Shown piece after piece: positions 9,582 through 21,091 of a stretch of 24,283 nucleotides of DNA. The stretch's first letter is position 1. Each line of letters opens with the position of its first letter. The notes beneath the pieces are model-generated. The model had not been told where the DNA came from. It did no database searches and saw only the letters and a program-made list of their open reading frames with translations. Both the position numbers and the translations under genes were made by a program. The stretch lies in the IMG/VR virus record IMGVR_UViG_3300035010_000023, positions 1 through 24,283 of that record; one strand, 5' to 3'. The DNA is from a virus.

Positions 9582-10022
9582 ATGGCCCAGGCCAAGACCT
9601 TCCGCCGCTCTGGTCTGCGGCTTCTGCTCGGCGATGGCGCGACGCCGGAGGGCTTTGCCGCCCCCTGCGGCCTGCTGGAGCGCGCGATCACCCTGTCGAA
9701 GGAGCTCGGCGAGACCAATGTGCCGGACTGTGCCGATGAGGATGCGGCGCCGTGGACCGAACGCGATGTCACCTCGAAGAGCGCCTCGATCGAAGGCTCG
9801 GGCGTGCTCGATGCCGATGCGCTGCCGATCTGGCAAGGCTTCTATGACGATGACGGCAGCCGCAACTGCCGGATCGAGCTCTGGCGCAATGGCGCGAAGG
9901 TCGGTCACTGGCAGGGTTCCTTCCATATCGAGACCTTCAACCCCGCCGCGCCGGAGGAAGGCCGCGTCACGTTGGAGATTTCGCTGCAGAGCGACGGCGC
10001 CGTCGTCTGGAGCCCCGTCTGA
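9582..10022 (+). CDS. Tail tube (major tail) protein
   Basis: The 146-residue product fits the short phage tail tube family: AKTFRRSGLRLLLGDG, then ITLSKELGETNVPDCADEDAAPWTERDVTSKSASIEGSGVLD, and a C-terminal beta sheet (CRIELWRNGAKVGHWQGSFHIETF, VTLEISLQSDG). Hexameric rings of this protein stack to form the tail. AGGTGA lies just before the ATG, and a stable hairpin precedes it, fitting a highly expressed gene. It lies directly upstream of the chaperone genes. The final TGA shares a base with the next ATG. Confidence 0.82.
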   Translation: MAQAKTFRRSGLRLLLGDGATPEGFAAPCGLLERAITLSKELGETNVPDCADEDAAPWTERDVTSKSASIEGSGVLDADALPIWQGFYDDDGSRNCRIELWRNGAKVGHWQGSFHIETFNPAAPEEGRVTLEISLQSDGAVVWSPV

Positions 10023-10459
10023 TGAGCGAGGAGAGCCGCAACGCTGCTGTCGATCTCGATTTCGGCGGCGGCAGCTATCGCTTCCGGCTCGCGATGGGCG
10101 AGCTGGAAGAGCTGCAGGAGGTGACGGGCGCAGGGCCGTATCACTGCCTGCGCCGGCTGCTCGCCGGCGACTGGCATGTGCAGGATGTGCGCGACACGAT
10201 CCGCCTAGGGCTCATCGGCGGCGGCCTTTCGGCGAATGAGGCGCTGAAGCTGACCCGGCGCTATGTCGACGAGCGCCCGGACTGGATTCGGAACGCGACG
10301 CTCGCCATCGCGGCGCTGAGTGCGGCGCTCGCGGGCGCGCCGGAGGAGCAGCCGTCAAAAAAAGGCGGCGCACCGAAGGTTCGGAGCAAGGCGCGTCGCT
10401 CCCGAACGGGCGCCTCGCCTTCGGTGCGTTCTACCGAGCCGCCGCCGCCATCGGCATGA
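10022..10459 (+). CDS. Tail assembly chaperone, GTA g11-like (TAC_11), zero-frame product
   Basis: The 145-residue zero-frame product begins with the TAC_11 / GTA family domain (about 1-100): VDLDFGGGSYRFRLAMGELEELQEVTGAGPYHCLRRLL, then IRLGLIGGGLSANEALKLTRRYVDERP. It is the analogue of lambda gpG, a chaperone that coats the tape measure protein before the tube polymerises. After residue 113 the zero frame becomes a Ser/Arg/Pro-rich tail, which is what an out-of-frame shadow looks like. That change falls exactly at an A7 run (10357-10363). The -1 frame from there encodes a second chaperone domain, so a fraction of ribosomes probably makes a longer fusion. The zero-frame stop overlaps an ATG as ATGA (10456-10459). 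Confidence 0.85.
   Translation: MSEESRNAAVDLDFGGGSYRFRLAMGELEELQEVTGAGPYHCLRRLLAGDWHVQDVRDTIRLGLIGGGLSANEALKLTRRYVDERPDWIRNATLAIAALSAALAGAPEEQPSKKGGAPKVRSKARRSRTGASPSVRSTEPPPPSA
10357..10428 (+). promoter_or_regulatory. Predicted programmed -1 ribosomal frameshift element
   Basis: Seven A residues at 10357-10363 form the canonical heptamer A_AAA_AAA in the correct phase of the upstream gene (tca aaa aaa ggc). After a 5-nt spacer an 11-bp perfect inverted repeat follows: CGCACCGAAGG (10369-10379) with CCTTCGGTGCG (10418-10428). An inner stem is also possible, GTTCGGAGC (10379-10387) with GCTCCCGAAC (10398-10407), with one bulged C. Slippery heptamer, short spacer and stable stem are the three parts of a -1 frameshift signal. 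The gene context, between the two tail-chaperone frames, is where such signals are known (lambda G/GT). Confidence 0.8.
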
Positions 10460-10611
10460 GCCGGGCGGATCTCAGGGCCGCGAGCTACTGGCAGTTCATG
10501 GAGATGGTCGACGGCTGGACCGCGGCGCATGTGCCCAACCGCAAGGAAGGGCTGAGCGCCGACGAGGAGGGTGCGCTCTGGGAGCTCGCCAGCCTGTCGA
10601 CGGAGGAGTGA
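10363..10611 (+). CDS. Second tail chaperone domain, translated by -1 frameshift (T-like)
   Basis: This is the frameshifted continuation of the upstream chaperone. After slippage the -1 frame reads from AGG at 10363 without a stop to TGA at 10609-10611, adding 82 residues to 114 for a fusion of about 196. The extension contains a helical segment (GRLAFGAFYRAAAAIGMS) followed by RADLRAASYWQFMEMVDGW, a pattern like the small GTA/TAC_6 chaperones (a helix, a polar turn, then a conserved W/F helix). Of the 20 codons at 10381-10440, 17 end in G or C. An ATG at 10456 could start a 51-residue version coupled by ATGA, but it lacks a binding site and would lose the first helix. The stop falls one base before the tape-measure ATG. 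Confidence 0.75.
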   Translation, partial: RRRTEGSEQGASLPNGRLAFGAFYRAAAAIGMSRADLRAASYWQFMEMVDGWTAAHVPNRKEGLSADEEGALWELASLSTEE

Positions 10612-10612
10612 G

Positions 10613-12757
10613 ATGGCGACCGATCTGGAAAGGCTGACGGTCTCCCTCGAGGCGAACGTCAAAAAGTTCGAAAGCGAGCTCAACAAGGCGCGCGGCCTCG
10701 CGGTCAAGACGCTGAAGGATATCGAGCGCGAGGCCGGCGGCATCGAGAAAGGCGTCAGCGCAGCGCTCGGCAAGGTCGCTGGCGCAGCGCGCAACGCACT
10801 CGCCGGTGTTGCTGCCGGCCTCGGCGTCAACGAGCTGCGGCAAGCCGCCGACGAATATACCAAGATCATCAACTCGCTGAAGGTTGCCGGCGTCAGCGGC
10901 GGCCAGCTCGACAGCGTCTTCAACGCGCTCTTTGCCTCGGCTCAGCGCAATGCGGTTCCGCTCGATGCGCTGGCCCAGCTCTATGGCCGGGTCAGCCAGG
11001 CCCAAACAACGCTGAACGCCTCCTCGACCGATCTCCTCGGTCTGACTGATATTGTCGCGCAGTCGCTGCGCGTCTCCGGCACTTCAGCGAGCGAGGCCTC
11101 GGGTGCGCTGCTGCAGCTCGGGCAGGCGCTCTCTGGCGGCAAGATCCAGGCGGAGGAGTATAACTCTCTGCTCGACGGCATGTATCCGTTGCTGCAGGCA
11201 GCGGCGGCTGGCCTGCAGGAGGCGGGTGGCGACGTCGCCAAGCTCACCGCGCTCGTGAAGGACGGCAAGGTCTCGTCGGAGGCCTTCTTCCGCGCCATTC
11301 AGGCCGGTGCGCCACTGCTGGAATCCAAGCTCGCCGGCGCGGTGCTGACCACCGACCAGGCGATGCAGCAGCTTCGCAACGAGTTCGTGCGCGCCGTCGG
11401 CGAGTTCGACAAGGCGACCGGCGCCAGCCAGGCGCTCGCGGGCGCAATTCAGGGATTGGCTGGCAGTATCGGCGGCGTCGGGCAGGCGGCGGCCTCGGCG
11501 GTCAACGGCGTGCAGGCTCTGATCGCCAAGGTCGGCGAACTCGCCAAGGCCAATGCCGGTCTGCAGCGGCAGGCGGCGCTGTCCTATCAGGAAGAACGCG
11601 CCCAGCGCGTCGCGCAGGCGCGCGAGATGGGGCTTGCTAACGCCGGAGGCCGCGAGGCGTTGGCGCAGGAGCGTGCCGCCGCGAACGCCGCAGCAGCAGA
11701 GCAGAGTCGCAAGGCGCTGCAGGATTTCCGGTCGAGCGAGCGCGAGTTCCGCAACGCGCTCGTCGATGCGCCGCAACCGCCGACGCGGCCGGCAGGGCTC
11801 GGCAATTCCGGCATCAAGCCGGTCTCGCTCAAGGATTTCAAGGTTCCGGGCGACGACAAGGCGAAGGGCGGCGGTGGCGGCTCGGAGGATAAGGATCGCG
11901 CCACGGCCCTGGAGCGCTATGTCATCAACCTGCAGAAGGCCGGCGAGCTCGCCAAGGCGGACCTCGCCACGGCCGGCAAGTCCAATGTCGAGCGGGAGAA
12001 GGCCCGTGCGTTGGTCGAGGCCACAGCGGCGGCGCAGAAGGATTTCGCCGCCGGCCTGCGCGAGACGGCGACGCTGACCACCGACGAGCGCGACAAGATC
12101 CTCGGTCTCGCCCAGGCGACGGCGCAGTGGAAGGAGGAGGCGCGGCAGGTCAAGGAGGCGATGGACTTCTCGGCCGACCTCGCCAAGGACGCCTTCAAGG
12201 GGCTGGTCTCGGACCTGATGCAGGGCAAGAGTGCCGCCGAGGCATTGGCCGACGCGTTGCAGCGAGTGGCCTCGAAACTTGCCGACAAGGCGATCGACAG
12301 CCTGATCGACGGGCTGTTCAAGACGGGCGGCACTGGCGCGGGCGCCGGGCTGCTGGGCGGGCTCGGCAAGCTCCTCGGCTTCGCCGAGGGCGGCCGGGTC
12401 TCCGGCCCCGGTTCGGGTCGGTCCGATTCCATCCTCGCCAGGCTCTCGGATGGCGAATTCGTCGTGAACAGCAAGGCCGCGAAGAAATACGGCCCGCTGC
12501 TCGCCGCGATCAACAGCGGGCAGATTCCGAAATTCGCCGATGGCGGCATGGTCGGGGGGCTGCCGGCGTTGCGCGCGCCCGCGGTGCCGGCTGGGCGGCG
12601 TATCGGGGCTGGCGCGACCGCAGCCTTCAACTATGCCCCGACCACGACGATCAACGCCCCCGGCGCGGATGCTCGGCAGATCGCGGCGATGCTGGATGCG
12701 CGCGACCGGGCCTTGCCGGAACGGTTTCGCGACTTCCAGCGGCGTGCCGGGAGCTAG
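10613..12757 (+). CDS. Tail tape measure protein
   Basis: The 714-residue protein is the tape measure that sets tail length and is later ejected. The N-terminus (LERLTVSLEANVKKFESELNKARG) is typical. The tape-measure core spans about 60-270 (LNASSTDLLGLTDIVAQSLR, QALSGGKIQAEEYNSLLDGMYPLL). Long alanine-rich helices follow, with a Gly-rich hinge near 420-430. The C-terminus holds the common phage segment FAEGGRVSGPGSGRSDSILARLSDGEFVVN (about 597-626). The ATG at 10613 lies one base after the stop of the -1 chaperone frame. An upstream in-frame ATG at 10571 lies inside that frame and is rejected. At the usual ~1.5 angstrom per residue this length suggests a tail near 107 nm, which is an inference. 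Confidence 0.92.
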   Translation: MATDLERLTVSLEANVKKFESELNKARGLAVKTLKDIEREAGGIEKGVSAALGKVAGAARNALAGVAAGLGVNELRQAADEYTKIINSLKVAGVSGGQLDSVFNALFASAQRNAVPLDALAQLYGRVSQAQTTLNASSTDLLGLTDIVAQSLRVSGTSASEASGALLQLGQALSGGKIQAEEYNSLLDGMYPLLQAAAAGLQEAGGDVAKLTALVKDGKVSSEAFFRAIQAGAPLLESKLAGAVLTTDQAMQQLRNEFVRAVGEFDKATGASQALAGAIQGLAGSIGGVGQAAASAVNGVQALIAKVGELAKANAGLQRQAALSYQEERAQRVAQAREMGLANAGGREALAQERAAANAAAAEQSRKALQDFRSSEREFRNALVDAPQPPTRPAGLGNSGIKPVSLKDFKVPGDDKAKGGGGGSEDKDRATALERYVINLQKAGELAKADLATAGKSNVEREKARALVEATAAAQKDFAAGLRETATLTTDERDKILGLAQATAQWKEEARQVKEAMDFSADLAKDAFKGLVSDLMQGKSAAEALADALQRVASKLADKAIDSLIDGLFKTGGTGAGAGLLGGLGKLLGFAEGGRVSGPGSGRSDSILARLSDGEFVVNSKAAKKYGPLLAAINSGQIPKFADGGMVGGLPALRAPAVPAGRRIGAGATAAFNYAPTTTINAPGADARQIAAMLDARDRALPERFRDFQRRAGS

Positions 12758-18058: not shown

Positions 18059-21000
18059 ATGGCGCGCGCGCTTTCCAATCCCGTTCGTATCGCCTCGCCG
18101 CTGCAGGGCGTCGATGGCCGCACCGTCCTCGCCAAGGCGCGGGCGCCGCTGGTCACTGACGGGCGCATCGGCGATTTCTGGATCGATACCGTCGCGAAAA
18201 AGCTCTACGGCCCGAAGAACGCCGGAGGCTGGCCGGATAACGGGCTGATCAAGGGTGACCGCGGCTGGGTGCCGCTGCTCGCCGCGGTGACGGATGGAAC
18301 GCGGCGCGTTCATCGCATCGTCGACTGGTCGGGTGGCGAAGGCGTGAAGCCCGCCACCGGCAGCTATGTCGGCGCGACCGGGCTGGTTGCGGACATCGCC
18401 GACGCTGTCGACATGCGCGGTCCAGATGGCCCCGCAATGCTGATCGATGCTCTCGCCGCCGGTGCTGACGATATCGCCTATGACGACAATGCCGCCATCG
18501 CCAAGGTCGGCGACGACAATGAGCGGCAGCCGCTCAAGCGCCTGCTCGGGGCGGGCGGCCTGCTGCAGTTCGATAGCGTCTCCGATGCCGCGGCGCTCGT
18601 CGTTCCCGCCAGCGTCAAGGCCGTGCAGATCAACGGCGCCGATAGCACCGAAGGCGGCGCGGGCCATATCCGCCGCCGCGTCGACAGCGAGCCGGCGATC
18701 GGGCCGAAGCACCGGTCTGCCGATCGCTTCACCTCCGATGGCAGCTCCGACGCCGCCAATGGCGGCTGGTGGGCATTCGTCGAGGACCGGGCTTTCCTGC
18801 CGGCGCCTGCCGTCAATTTCGTCCGCGGCATTGGCGAGAAGCTGCGGGATCGCTTGCACCTCAAAGACTTCGGGGCCGTTGGTGATGGTGTCACAGATGA
18901 TACTGCCAAGGTGCAGGCGGCGATCGATGCTGTCTACGCGCGCGGCGGCGGAGAGATTGACTGCTCGGGTGGGCGCTGGTTGATTGATAGCGGCGAGCTG
19001 CTGGTCAAGGAGAGTGTGCACCTCATCGGGCCGCACCAGTTCTATGCGTGGCGCGGCGCGACTATCGATCATTCGACCACGAAGGGCTCATTCGTCGTCA
19101 GTCCTGGTGCGCTCATCCGACTGGTTGGGCATCAGGCGGGTCTGCGCGGTCTCGTCTTCCTGCGCAAGGGCATGGTCAAGCCGAGCAATCTCCGCGAGGG
19201 GCTCGACTTCATCGCGGCCATGGCCGGCACAGGCGTTCGGATCGGCTATGACGCCGGGGCGACCAACCGCGCGGTCAATACCTATATCGGGCATTGTACG
19301 TTCTTTGGCTTCGAGTACGCGGTCTATTGCGATTTTTCGACGTGCCCGGTGGTTGAGTACCTAAATATCGACTGTAAGCACGGCGTATTCCTCAAAAATG
19401 TCTTCGATAAGAATCATCTGAGTCACGTTCACTGCTATCCGTATCTGACCGCTCACCAGCCTGATTGGTCATATATGAGCTATGAGATCAGCAATGTCGC
19501 CAACAACGGCGGCGGTCACTGCCGGGTCACGCTCGCGGCGCATGGGCTGGCCACGGGTGACAGCATCGTCGTCAAGGATGTGGTGGGAACGACGGAGGCC
19601 AATGGCCGCTGGACAGTCACTGTCATCAACAGCACGACTGTCGATCTTCAGGGCTCGGTCTTCGCTAACGCTTATGTCTCGGGTGGCGTGCTCTCCCCCC
19701 GTCCGCTGGCTCGCGATGGCGTGGCCTTCAATTTTGACGCCAATGTCGATTGGGGTCAGGCTGACAACTGCTTCTCCTATGGCTACCAGACGGGTTTCCG
19801 CATCGCGAGTTCGAACCACTGCCAGCTCGTGAACTGCGGTGCGGACCACTACGCGCCTGCCGGCGATCCTACCACGATTGGCTTCAACATCGTTTCGGCG
19901 GTGTCCGCAAAGCTGATCGGTCCGCAAGCTGCCGCGCAAGGCACTGGAATCCGTCTGGACGTAGGGACGACGAACGGCGCCTCGGTCGTCGGCTGGGACA
20001 CCTGGGGCGACATCGATAAGTGCATTCATGTCGTCAGCGGCGGTGCAGCCATCGTCGGCGGCGAGATGAAGAACGGCACGTCGGCGGCGACCGCTGGCAT
20101 TGTAATCGATGCAACCGCCGAAGATTGCGTGGTGACCGGCAACAAGTCGCGCGGCATAGCCGCTCCCATTTCCGCCAGCGGTACGGGCCTGCGCAAGCTG
20201 ACGGCGTGGGCCAATTCCTGGGCGGACTCGGGCTCTGTTGGCAACCGTCTTGCCGCCAGCAACTCACAGCGGGCCGTCACATTCGACGAGATCAGCGACA
20301 ACGGGGCCGGCTTCAGTCTCGTCGGTCAAAAGGCGCGGGGTACTCAGGATGCCCCCACGATAACGCTCTCTGGCGATACGCCAATCAACATCATCGGCCG
20401 AATCTATGACGGTGCGAATTACGGAGCGCTCGCGGGCCTCCGGGCGAGCGCTCGCGGGGCACCTTCAAGCGGAAGTGTGGCGGGCGGCTGGCTCTTCTCC
20501 ACAGCGCCATCGGGGTCGTTAGTTGCGGTAGACCGTCTTCTTTTGAATGAGGCCGGACACCTAATGCCCTTAACCGACAACGCTTATGCTTGCGGGACAA
20601 ACGGCTTTCGGTGGTCATCCTTCTGGGGCGCCAATGCGACCATCCAGACATCCGATGCTCGGGCCAAATGTGAGATCGCCGATAGCGCTCTCGGCCTCGA
20701 TTGGGTAATGAGCCTGCGCCCGGTCTCCTACAAATTCGTCGAAGGCGGCAAGCGGGCTGTCCGGCAGGTCTACCGCGACGCCGAGGGGAATGAGGTGCCG
20801 GAAGGCGTGCCAATCCCCGATGGCGCCAGCGCTGCGGAGATCATCACCGAAAGCGTCTTAGGTCGGCGCACCCATTGGGGCTTTCTCGCGCAGGAGGTCA
20901 AAGCCTCGCTGCCCGATGGCGTCGATTTCGGGGGCTGGGTTCTGACGAACAGTGATGATCCCGAGAGCGAGCAAGGGCTCCGTTACGAAGAGCTGATCGC

Positions 21001-21091
21001 TCCGCTCGTCAAGGCGCTTCAGGAGGCTGTCGCGCAGGTCCGTGACCTTCAAGGTAGGGTCATGACGCTTGAGGGCGCAGATCTAACCTGA
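18059..21091 (+). CDS. Tailspike: pectate-lyase-type beta-helix with S74 C-terminal chaperone
   Basis: The 1010-residue protein starts after AGGAG (18046-18050). The N-terminal 260 residues form the virion-attachment part. At 266-310 it has the Pectate_lyase_3 signature LHLKDFGAVGDGVTDDTAKV, opening a right-handed beta-helix typical of spikes that bind or cut surface polysaccharide. An insert at about 481-544 (CRVTLAAHGLATGDSIVVKD, then NGRWTVTVI and YVSGGVL) resembles the E1_FCCH-type module found in phage tail proteins. The C-terminus is an S74 intramolecular chaperone: TSDARAK gives S865 and K870, the same 5-residue spacing as the endosialidase Ser-Lys dyad. GFLAQEV and a final coiled coil follow. 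Cleavage near S865 would release about 145 residues. The helix region is clearly less GC-rich than neighbouring genes. Substrate is unknown. Confidence 0.88.
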   Translation: MARALSNPVRIASPLQGVDGRTVLAKARAPLVTDGRIGDFWIDTVAKKLYGPKNAGGWPDNGLIKGDRGWVPLLAAVTDGTRRVHRIVDWSGGEGVKPATGSYVGATGLVADIADAVDMRGPDGPAMLIDALAAGADDIAYDDNAAIAKVGDDNERQPLKRLLGAGGLLQFDSVSDAAALVVPASVKAVQINGADSTEGGAGHIRRRVDSEPAIGPKHRSADRFTSDGSSDAANGGWWAFVEDRAFLPAPAVNFVRGIGEKLRDRLHLKDFGAVGDGVTDDTAKVQAAIDAVYARGGGEIDCSGGRWLIDSGELLVKESVHLIGPHQFYAWRGATIDHSTTKGSFVVSPGALIRLVGHQAGLRGLVFLRKGMVKPSNLREGLDFIAAMAGTGVRIGYDAGATNRAVNTYIGHCTFFGFEYAVYCDFSTCPVVEYLNIDCKHGVFLKNVFDKNHLSHVHCYPYLTAHQPDWSYMSYEISNVANNGGGHCRVTLAAHGLATGDSIVVKDVVGTTEANGRWTVTVINSTTVDLQGSVFANAYVSGGVLSPRPLARDGVAFNFDANVDWGQADNCFSYGYQTGFRIASSNHCQLVNCGADHYAPAGDPTTIGFNIVSAVSAKLIGPQAAAQGTGIRLDVGTTNGASVVGWDTWGDIDKCIHVVSGGAAIVGGEMKNGTSAATAGIVIDATAEDCVVTGNKSRGIAAPISASGTGLRKLTAWANSWADSGSVGNRLAASNSQRAVTFDEISDNGAGFSLVGQKARGTQDAPTITLSGDTPINIIGRIYDGANYGALAGLRASARGAPSSGSVAGGWLFSTAPSGSLVAVDRLLLNEAGHLMPLTDNAYACGTNGFRWSSFWGANATIQTSDARAKCEIADSALGLDWVMSLRPVSYKFVEGGKRAVRQVYRDAEGNEVPEGVPIPDGASAAEIITESVLGRRTHWGFLAQEVKASLPDGVDFGGWVLTNSDDPESEQGLRYEELIAPLVKALQEAVAQVRDLQGRVMTLEGADLT

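Follow-up and report, generated by a model that had tools for sequence, protein, structure and literature searches.

A very probable programmed −1 frameshift in a viral tail-assembly chaperone gene, and its likely counterparts in gene transfer agents

The viral IMG/VR record IMGVR_UViG_3300035010_000023, the full 24,283 bases of which constitute the window analyzed here, very probably contains a programmed −1 frameshift that, judged from the sequence, would give two tail-assembly chaperones from one start. The locus is a further member of the lambda G/GT class, a mechanism already familiar from phages that here occurs in a new location. Comparison of the sequence with its relatives establishes the arrangement of the two frames, the slippery site, a stem whose arms covary, and selection acting in the −1 frame. 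An initial annotation of this DNA had described a heptamer and a stem at which a −1 frameshift joins two chaperone domains, had likened the second domain to TAC_6, and had regarded the two chaperones as separate genes in gene transfer agents (GTAs). Its central claim is strongly supported by the arrangement, sites and stem of the relatives, whereas the likeness to TAC_6 is unproven and the statement on GTAs looks wrong.

The window contains matches to terminase, portal, protease, capsid, connector, tube, tape-measure and tail-fibre proteins. The features of the locus, from the tube gene to the tape measure gene, lie on the forward strand, and domain matches give the gene order as tube, tail-assembly chaperone and tape measure. 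The major tail (tube) protein gene is located directly upstream (9582–10022; PF06199 Phage_tail_2, E 9e-18), and the tape measure protein gene is at 10613–12757 (PF20155 TMP_3, E 2.6e-48). The zero-frame ORF (10022–10459) encodes the short tail-assembly chaperone, and contains a TAC_11 domain at approximately residues 9–105. This ORF scored 75.8 bits against Phage_TAC_11 (PF11836, E 2.9e-21), above the gathering score of 27.8, and also matched phrog_8985 (E 8e-39). The zero-frame codons CCG TCA AAA AAA GGC place the heptamer A_AAA_AAA (10357–10363) in phase. An SD-like element, GGAGGAG (10342–10348), lies 8 nt before the heptamer, and a 5-nt spacer, GGCGG (10364–10368), separates the heptamer from a putative stimulatory stem, which was recognized from an inverted repeat, the predicted fold and covariation. 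Its 5′ arm, CGCACCGAAGG (10369–10379), and 3′ arm, CCTTCGGTGCG (10418–10428), are complementary at 11 of 11 positions, as had been claimed, and the predicted fold shows an inner imperfect helix. The zero frame continues past the heptamer as GGAPKVRSKARRSRTGASPSVRSTEPPPPSA. In the −1 frame, there are 82 open codons (10363–10608) followed by a TGA at 10609–10611, the whole stretch of 10363–10611 encoding the 82-residue C-terminal domain of the proposed long chaperone; the ATG of the tape measure gene at 10613 lies one base beyond. An internal ATG of the −1 frame overlaps the zero-frame TGA (10457–10459) in the sequence ATGA (10456–10459), and the product from this ATG would be 51 aa long. The earlier coordinates of the heptamer, spacer, stem, −1 frame and stop were all right where checked; GGAGGAG and ATGA were both absent from the initial annotation. 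Across 21 gene frames checked in the window, there are two in-phase X_XXY_YYZ sites (Y = A/T) in total. The other one, GGGTTTC at 19792–19798 inside the tail-fibre ORF (18059–21091), is probably due to chance.

In the proposed mechanism, the majority of ribosomes would stay in the zero frame, which runs from 10022 to 10459, and would produce a 145-residue, G-like TAC_11 protein. A minority would move one base back on the heptamer, with help from the stem that begins 5 nt further on and possibly from the upstream GGAGGAG, and would continue in the −1 frame to 10611. Their product would be a GT-like TAC_11 fusion of approximately 196 residues, the C-terminal domain of which is predicted to be helical. 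If the two products behave like those of the lambda class, whose fusion protein is a minor product in an essential ratio, the short form would wrap around the tape measure protein, the rarer long form would bring in tail-tube subunits, and both forms would be absent from the finished virion. The occurrence of the slip, its efficiency and this division of labour between the products are what we infer for the locus. One point against the proposal comes from E. coli, where A_AAA_AAA slips less readily than A_AAA_AAG (PMC5009743).

Approximately 105 loci, in viral contigs and in bacterial genomes, were recovered by scanning with the TAC_11 part; where named, the hosts are mostly Hyphomicrobiales. 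A profile of the second domain places it in the −1 frame in 82 distinct loci, where it overlaps the first domain. Four loci had no match to the second-domain profile; in two of these the domain can be recognized by eye, a third is truncated, and the domain seems to be missing from the fourth (L022). The initial annotation had proposed that the heptamer and the stem pairing be compared among homologues. Some slippery site was found at the junction in all 73 scorable loci, and A_AAA_AAA itself in 5. The exact heptamer of the window is a minority variant, the relatives having mostly G_GGG_GAG or G_GGA_AAR. The other counts were G_GGG_GAG 32, G_GGA_AAA 20, G_GGA_AAG 11, G_GAA_AAG 3 and G_GGA_AAC 2, where G_GGG_GAG and G_GAA_AAG (the latter with n = 3 loci) are non-canonical classes that were admitted after the junctions had been seen. 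As background in the same ORFs, in-phase X_XXA_AAN was found at 0 of 8,382 codons versus 38 of the 73 junctions, and in-phase G_GGG_GAG at 2 of 8,382 codons. The G_GGG_GAG class is supported because the stem test described below holds within it. The near-identical GGGGGAA was reported in the PRFect paper for approximately 1,000 annotated phage chaperone genes, with G:U re-pairing as the explanation (PMC10885494). Overall, the relatives constitute a large natural set of slippery sites that are apparently equivalent in function and accompanied by a covarying stem. Two public phages are also of note here. Nostoc phage Nsp-JY10, whose recorded host is cyanobacterial, has a TAC_11 gene that resembles its rhizobial-phage counterparts and carries A_AAA_AAA (L117:1821–1827) as the site, as in the window. 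In Sinorhizobium phage HMSP1-Susan, G_GGG_GAG abuts a zero-frame TAG (L219:1345–1354), a layout seen in several GTA loci.

The stem arms covary between relatives when their sequences are compared. Pairing was scored in a fixed register, set by the heptamer at one end and a conserved Phe codon at the other, and across 73 loci and 9 positions 80% of cells were observed to pair. Slid registers gave approximately 45%, and partners swapped between loci gave 62% (maximum 66% in 500 swaps); these counts are not probabilities because relatedness is not in the model, and the slid and swapped controls agree with each other. Within each main site class, 0 of 1,000 swaps reached the observed pairing. For the ten closest loci, 90.9% of stem cells pair, and in the close group both-sided changes were found at two pairs, one of which is G-C, A-U or U-A depending on the member. 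The arms of subgroups are wholly different in sequence, still complementary, and located 5–7 nt past the site, examples being GCGCCGGAGG/CCTTCGGCGC, GGCGCCAAA/TTTGGCGCC and GCGGCAAGTC/GATTTGCCGC. Fold energy alone was unremarkable, being mildly below that of shuffles (z −1.4 and −1.9), and is not used as an argument because such z-scores are too weak alone; an equally good stem starting 2–13 nt past the heptamer was obtained in 0 of 60 shuffles. Upstream of the site, GGAGG, AGGAG or GAGGA was found at a distance of 5–18 nt in 39 of the 73 loci, versus 4.3% at other in-phase ORF positions, an enrichment that may be attributed partly to Glu codons because the protein is acidic there. The GGAGGAG of the window is a possible dnaX-like upstream stimulator.

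The overlap carries the pattern of substitution of a coding −1 frame. Among eight close relatives, substitutions by −1 codon position were 0.18, 0.19 and 0.40, position 3 being the highest, and amino-acid identity in the overlap was 0.69 in the −1 frame versus 0.51 in the zero frame. The initial annotation had named homologues with a separate start and without the signal as evidence that would speak against a frameshift; between the heptamer and the conserved core, ATG, GTG or TTG was found in the −1 frame in 0 of 73 loci. In 27 of these 73 loci, a −1-frame stop lies at most 12 nt upstream of the heptamer, and because this stop is directly upstream, the second domain can there be reached only by a frameshift.

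The lack of starts among the relatives also bears on termination-reinitiation, in which ribosomes would stop at the TGA at 10457–10459 and restart at the ATG at 10456, producing a separate 51-residue protein. The ATGA is really present in the window, overlaps of this kind are classic signals of coupling, and in several public phage records the second domain appears as a small gene with an internal start. However, none of the aligned relatives shares the Met at 10456. It is residue 32 of the −1 domain, and a protein starting there would lose the first predicted helix together with the most conserved stretch, GRLAFGAFY. Moreover, the region 10363–10455 is conserved in the −1 frame, which would be unnecessary under re-initiation. 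Because this ATG is without a counterpart and falls past the first helix, and because the relatives are without a start, re-initiation is very unlikely as the main route to the second domain.

Slippage of RNA polymerase on the seven A's, resulting in a shifted mRNA, is an even more improbable origin of the −1 product, although the site in the window is a homopolymer run and transcriptional slippage is documented for Thermus dnaX (PMC5009743). Most relatives have no long homopolymer at the same place (G_GGA_AAR, G_GGG_GAG), the site is phased to the zero-frame codons and followed by the covarying stem at a fixed spacing, and a run of seven A's falls short of the nine-base runs described as slippage sites (PMC5009743). 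A sequencing error or pseudogene, in which an indel in the A-run has broken a single frame, would be in line with the error-prone nature of A-runs and with the fusion of the two domains in one frame in three relatives. But 82 distinct loci, taken from independent sources, have the same −1 offset, together with varied slippery sequences and an intact covarying stem; an artefact of this kind has a negligible probability and is ruled out by this conservation across relatives.

Programmed frameshifting is the very probable reading, and the three fused relatives are, as judged from their sequences, natural losses of it. TAC_11 and the second domain are fused in frame, without a slippery site, in the isolated Rhizobium phage RHph_X2_26 (L114:1498–2070) and in two further loci (L100:2998–3567 and L086:2953–3570), the last of which also looks degenerate. 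Since these fusions are in frame and have no slippery site, they would be expected to give the long product alone. Because three relatives are fused without the signal, the two-product output seems not to be indispensable everywhere.

What is the second domain? In 15 of 16 aligned relatives it matches phrog_18467, which has no annotation. The −1 domain of the window itself falls below the phrog_18467 threshold and gave no match in Pfam, PHROGs or NCBIfam, and is 51–52% identical to those of close relatives. The TAC_6 model of Pfam (PF09550) matched neither the window nor any of the 16 relatives, and the hhalign comparison of the −1 domain with TAC_6 was marginal (probability 56%, E 1e-4 over 41 columns), hence the verdict of unproven given above. 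The −1 domain is predicted to have four helices, at residues 16–29, 34–39, 42–56 and 66–81, and Foldseek searches of PDB and BFVD with this predicted model found nothing at E ≤ 0.001. Searching public phages with the −1 domain by tblastn, together with a single-sequence viral scan, returned nothing; because single-sequence searches were empty, profiles were needed to find the second domain. In the public phage records (L113, L115–L117 and L217–L220), the domain is either a tiny hypothetical gene or unannotated. The two frames are joined in none of the eight inspected records with the frameshift arrangement, the ninth record being the in-frame fusion of RHph_X2_26. The present reading would correct an error that recurs in annotation, since none of the records inspected presents the second chaperone domain of a TAC_11 phage as a frameshift product.

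The more interesting and wider part of this study concerns GTAs, for which loci L118–L214 were obtained from host genomes by PF09550 searches. Two GTA loci were extended (NCBIfam matches in L215 and L216) and are RcGTA-type clusters, on the basis of the RcGTA tape measure and the Rcc01695 distal tail protein and, in one locus, also the baseplate hub and megatron. The view that the two chaperones are separate genes in GTAs looks wrong in the light of 94 RcGTA-type loci with both genes: in 88 of them, the frame of TAC_6 (g10.1) is −1 relative to that of TAC_11 (g10). An in-phase slippery heptamer was found in 64 of these 88, and 57 of the 64 have no ATG or GTG start for TAC_6. The remainder of the 88 consists of 16 loci with a start and no heptamer, 7 with both and 8 with neither (Fisher p 6e-7, ignoring relatedness). 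C_CCU_UUN was found in 33 of 39 GTA loci in which the zero frame is open at the Phe codon, versus 3 of 30 in which it has already ended, the expectation from codon usage being approximately 8%. The heptamer abuts the zero-frame stop in 11 GTA loci, in the forms AAACCCT-TGA (seven), GGGAAAG-TAA (two), AAAAAAT-TAG (one) and CCCTTTT-TGA (one). For the AAACCCTTGA group only, a TTG start of the second gene overlapping the TGA is a rival explanation; L140, L149, L164, L169 and L179 are among the loci that keep A_AAC_CCU without that TTG.

It is likely that alphaproteobacterial GTAs join g10 and g10.1 by programmed −1 frameshift at lineage-specific sites, and that the family as a whole exchanges its slippery sites while retaining the −1 fusion, with occasional loss by in-frame fusion; the signal in the window would be one state of this turnover. 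These GTA sites would be C_CCU_UUN within the Pro-Phe-x-Trp motif, A_AAC_CCU (often with UGA immediately after it), G_GGA_AAG_UAA and A_AAA_AAU_UAG. If this is true, g10.1 is an extension of g10 in many lineages, while others have switched to an ordinary overlapping start, which is a testable prediction for GTAs, where g10 and g10.1 count as separate genes. In the literature searched, which covered few subscription papers and on which no priority claim is based, there was no report of a g10/g10.1 frameshift; one GTA paper with a frameshift describes a +1 site in a Wolbachia hydrolase.

The lambda G/GT (gpG/gpGT) −1 frameshift and its counterparts in long-tailed phages are known from Xu, Hendrix and Duda (2004), as described in PMC5009743. 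Like lambda G/GT, the window has a short and a putatively −1-extended chaperone between the tube and tape-measure genes, a canonical heptamer, and an extension that is a small C-terminal domain; as in the lambda class, the second ORF has no independent start, the ATG at 10456 falling inside the domain. Unlike lambda, the window combines a TAC_11 (GTA-gp10 type) N-terminal domain with a C-terminal domain of the phrog_18467 type and has the heptamer A_AAA_AAA instead of G_GGA_AAG; its covarying stem at a 5-nt spacing and its SD-like element resemble dnaX. E. coli dnaX likewise has an A-rich heptamer, an upstream SD-like element and a downstream stem-loop, whereas its shift leads to a shortened product, at approximately 50% (PMC5009743), and the shift proposed for the window would lead to a longer one. 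In arrangement, the window also resembles the Caulobacter phage CbK group, alphaproteobacterial phages for which the −1 sites AAAAAAC and GGGAAAC are annotated upstream of the tape measure gene (PMC3556154). RcGTA-type g10/g10.1 (PF11836/PF09550) shares with the window the gene order, TAC_11 as the first domain, and the −1 position of the second frame noted above. Clusters of the RcGTA type are characterized by a short RcGTA tape measure, an Rcc01695-type distal tail protein and a megatron; the window contains a 714-aa TMP_3 tape measure and an S74 fibre. Unlike the window, the RcGTA type has the heptamers C_CCU_UUN, A_AAC_CCU or G_GGA_AAG, sometimes right before the zero-frame stop, and a second domain of PF09550 that is only marginally similar to that of the window.
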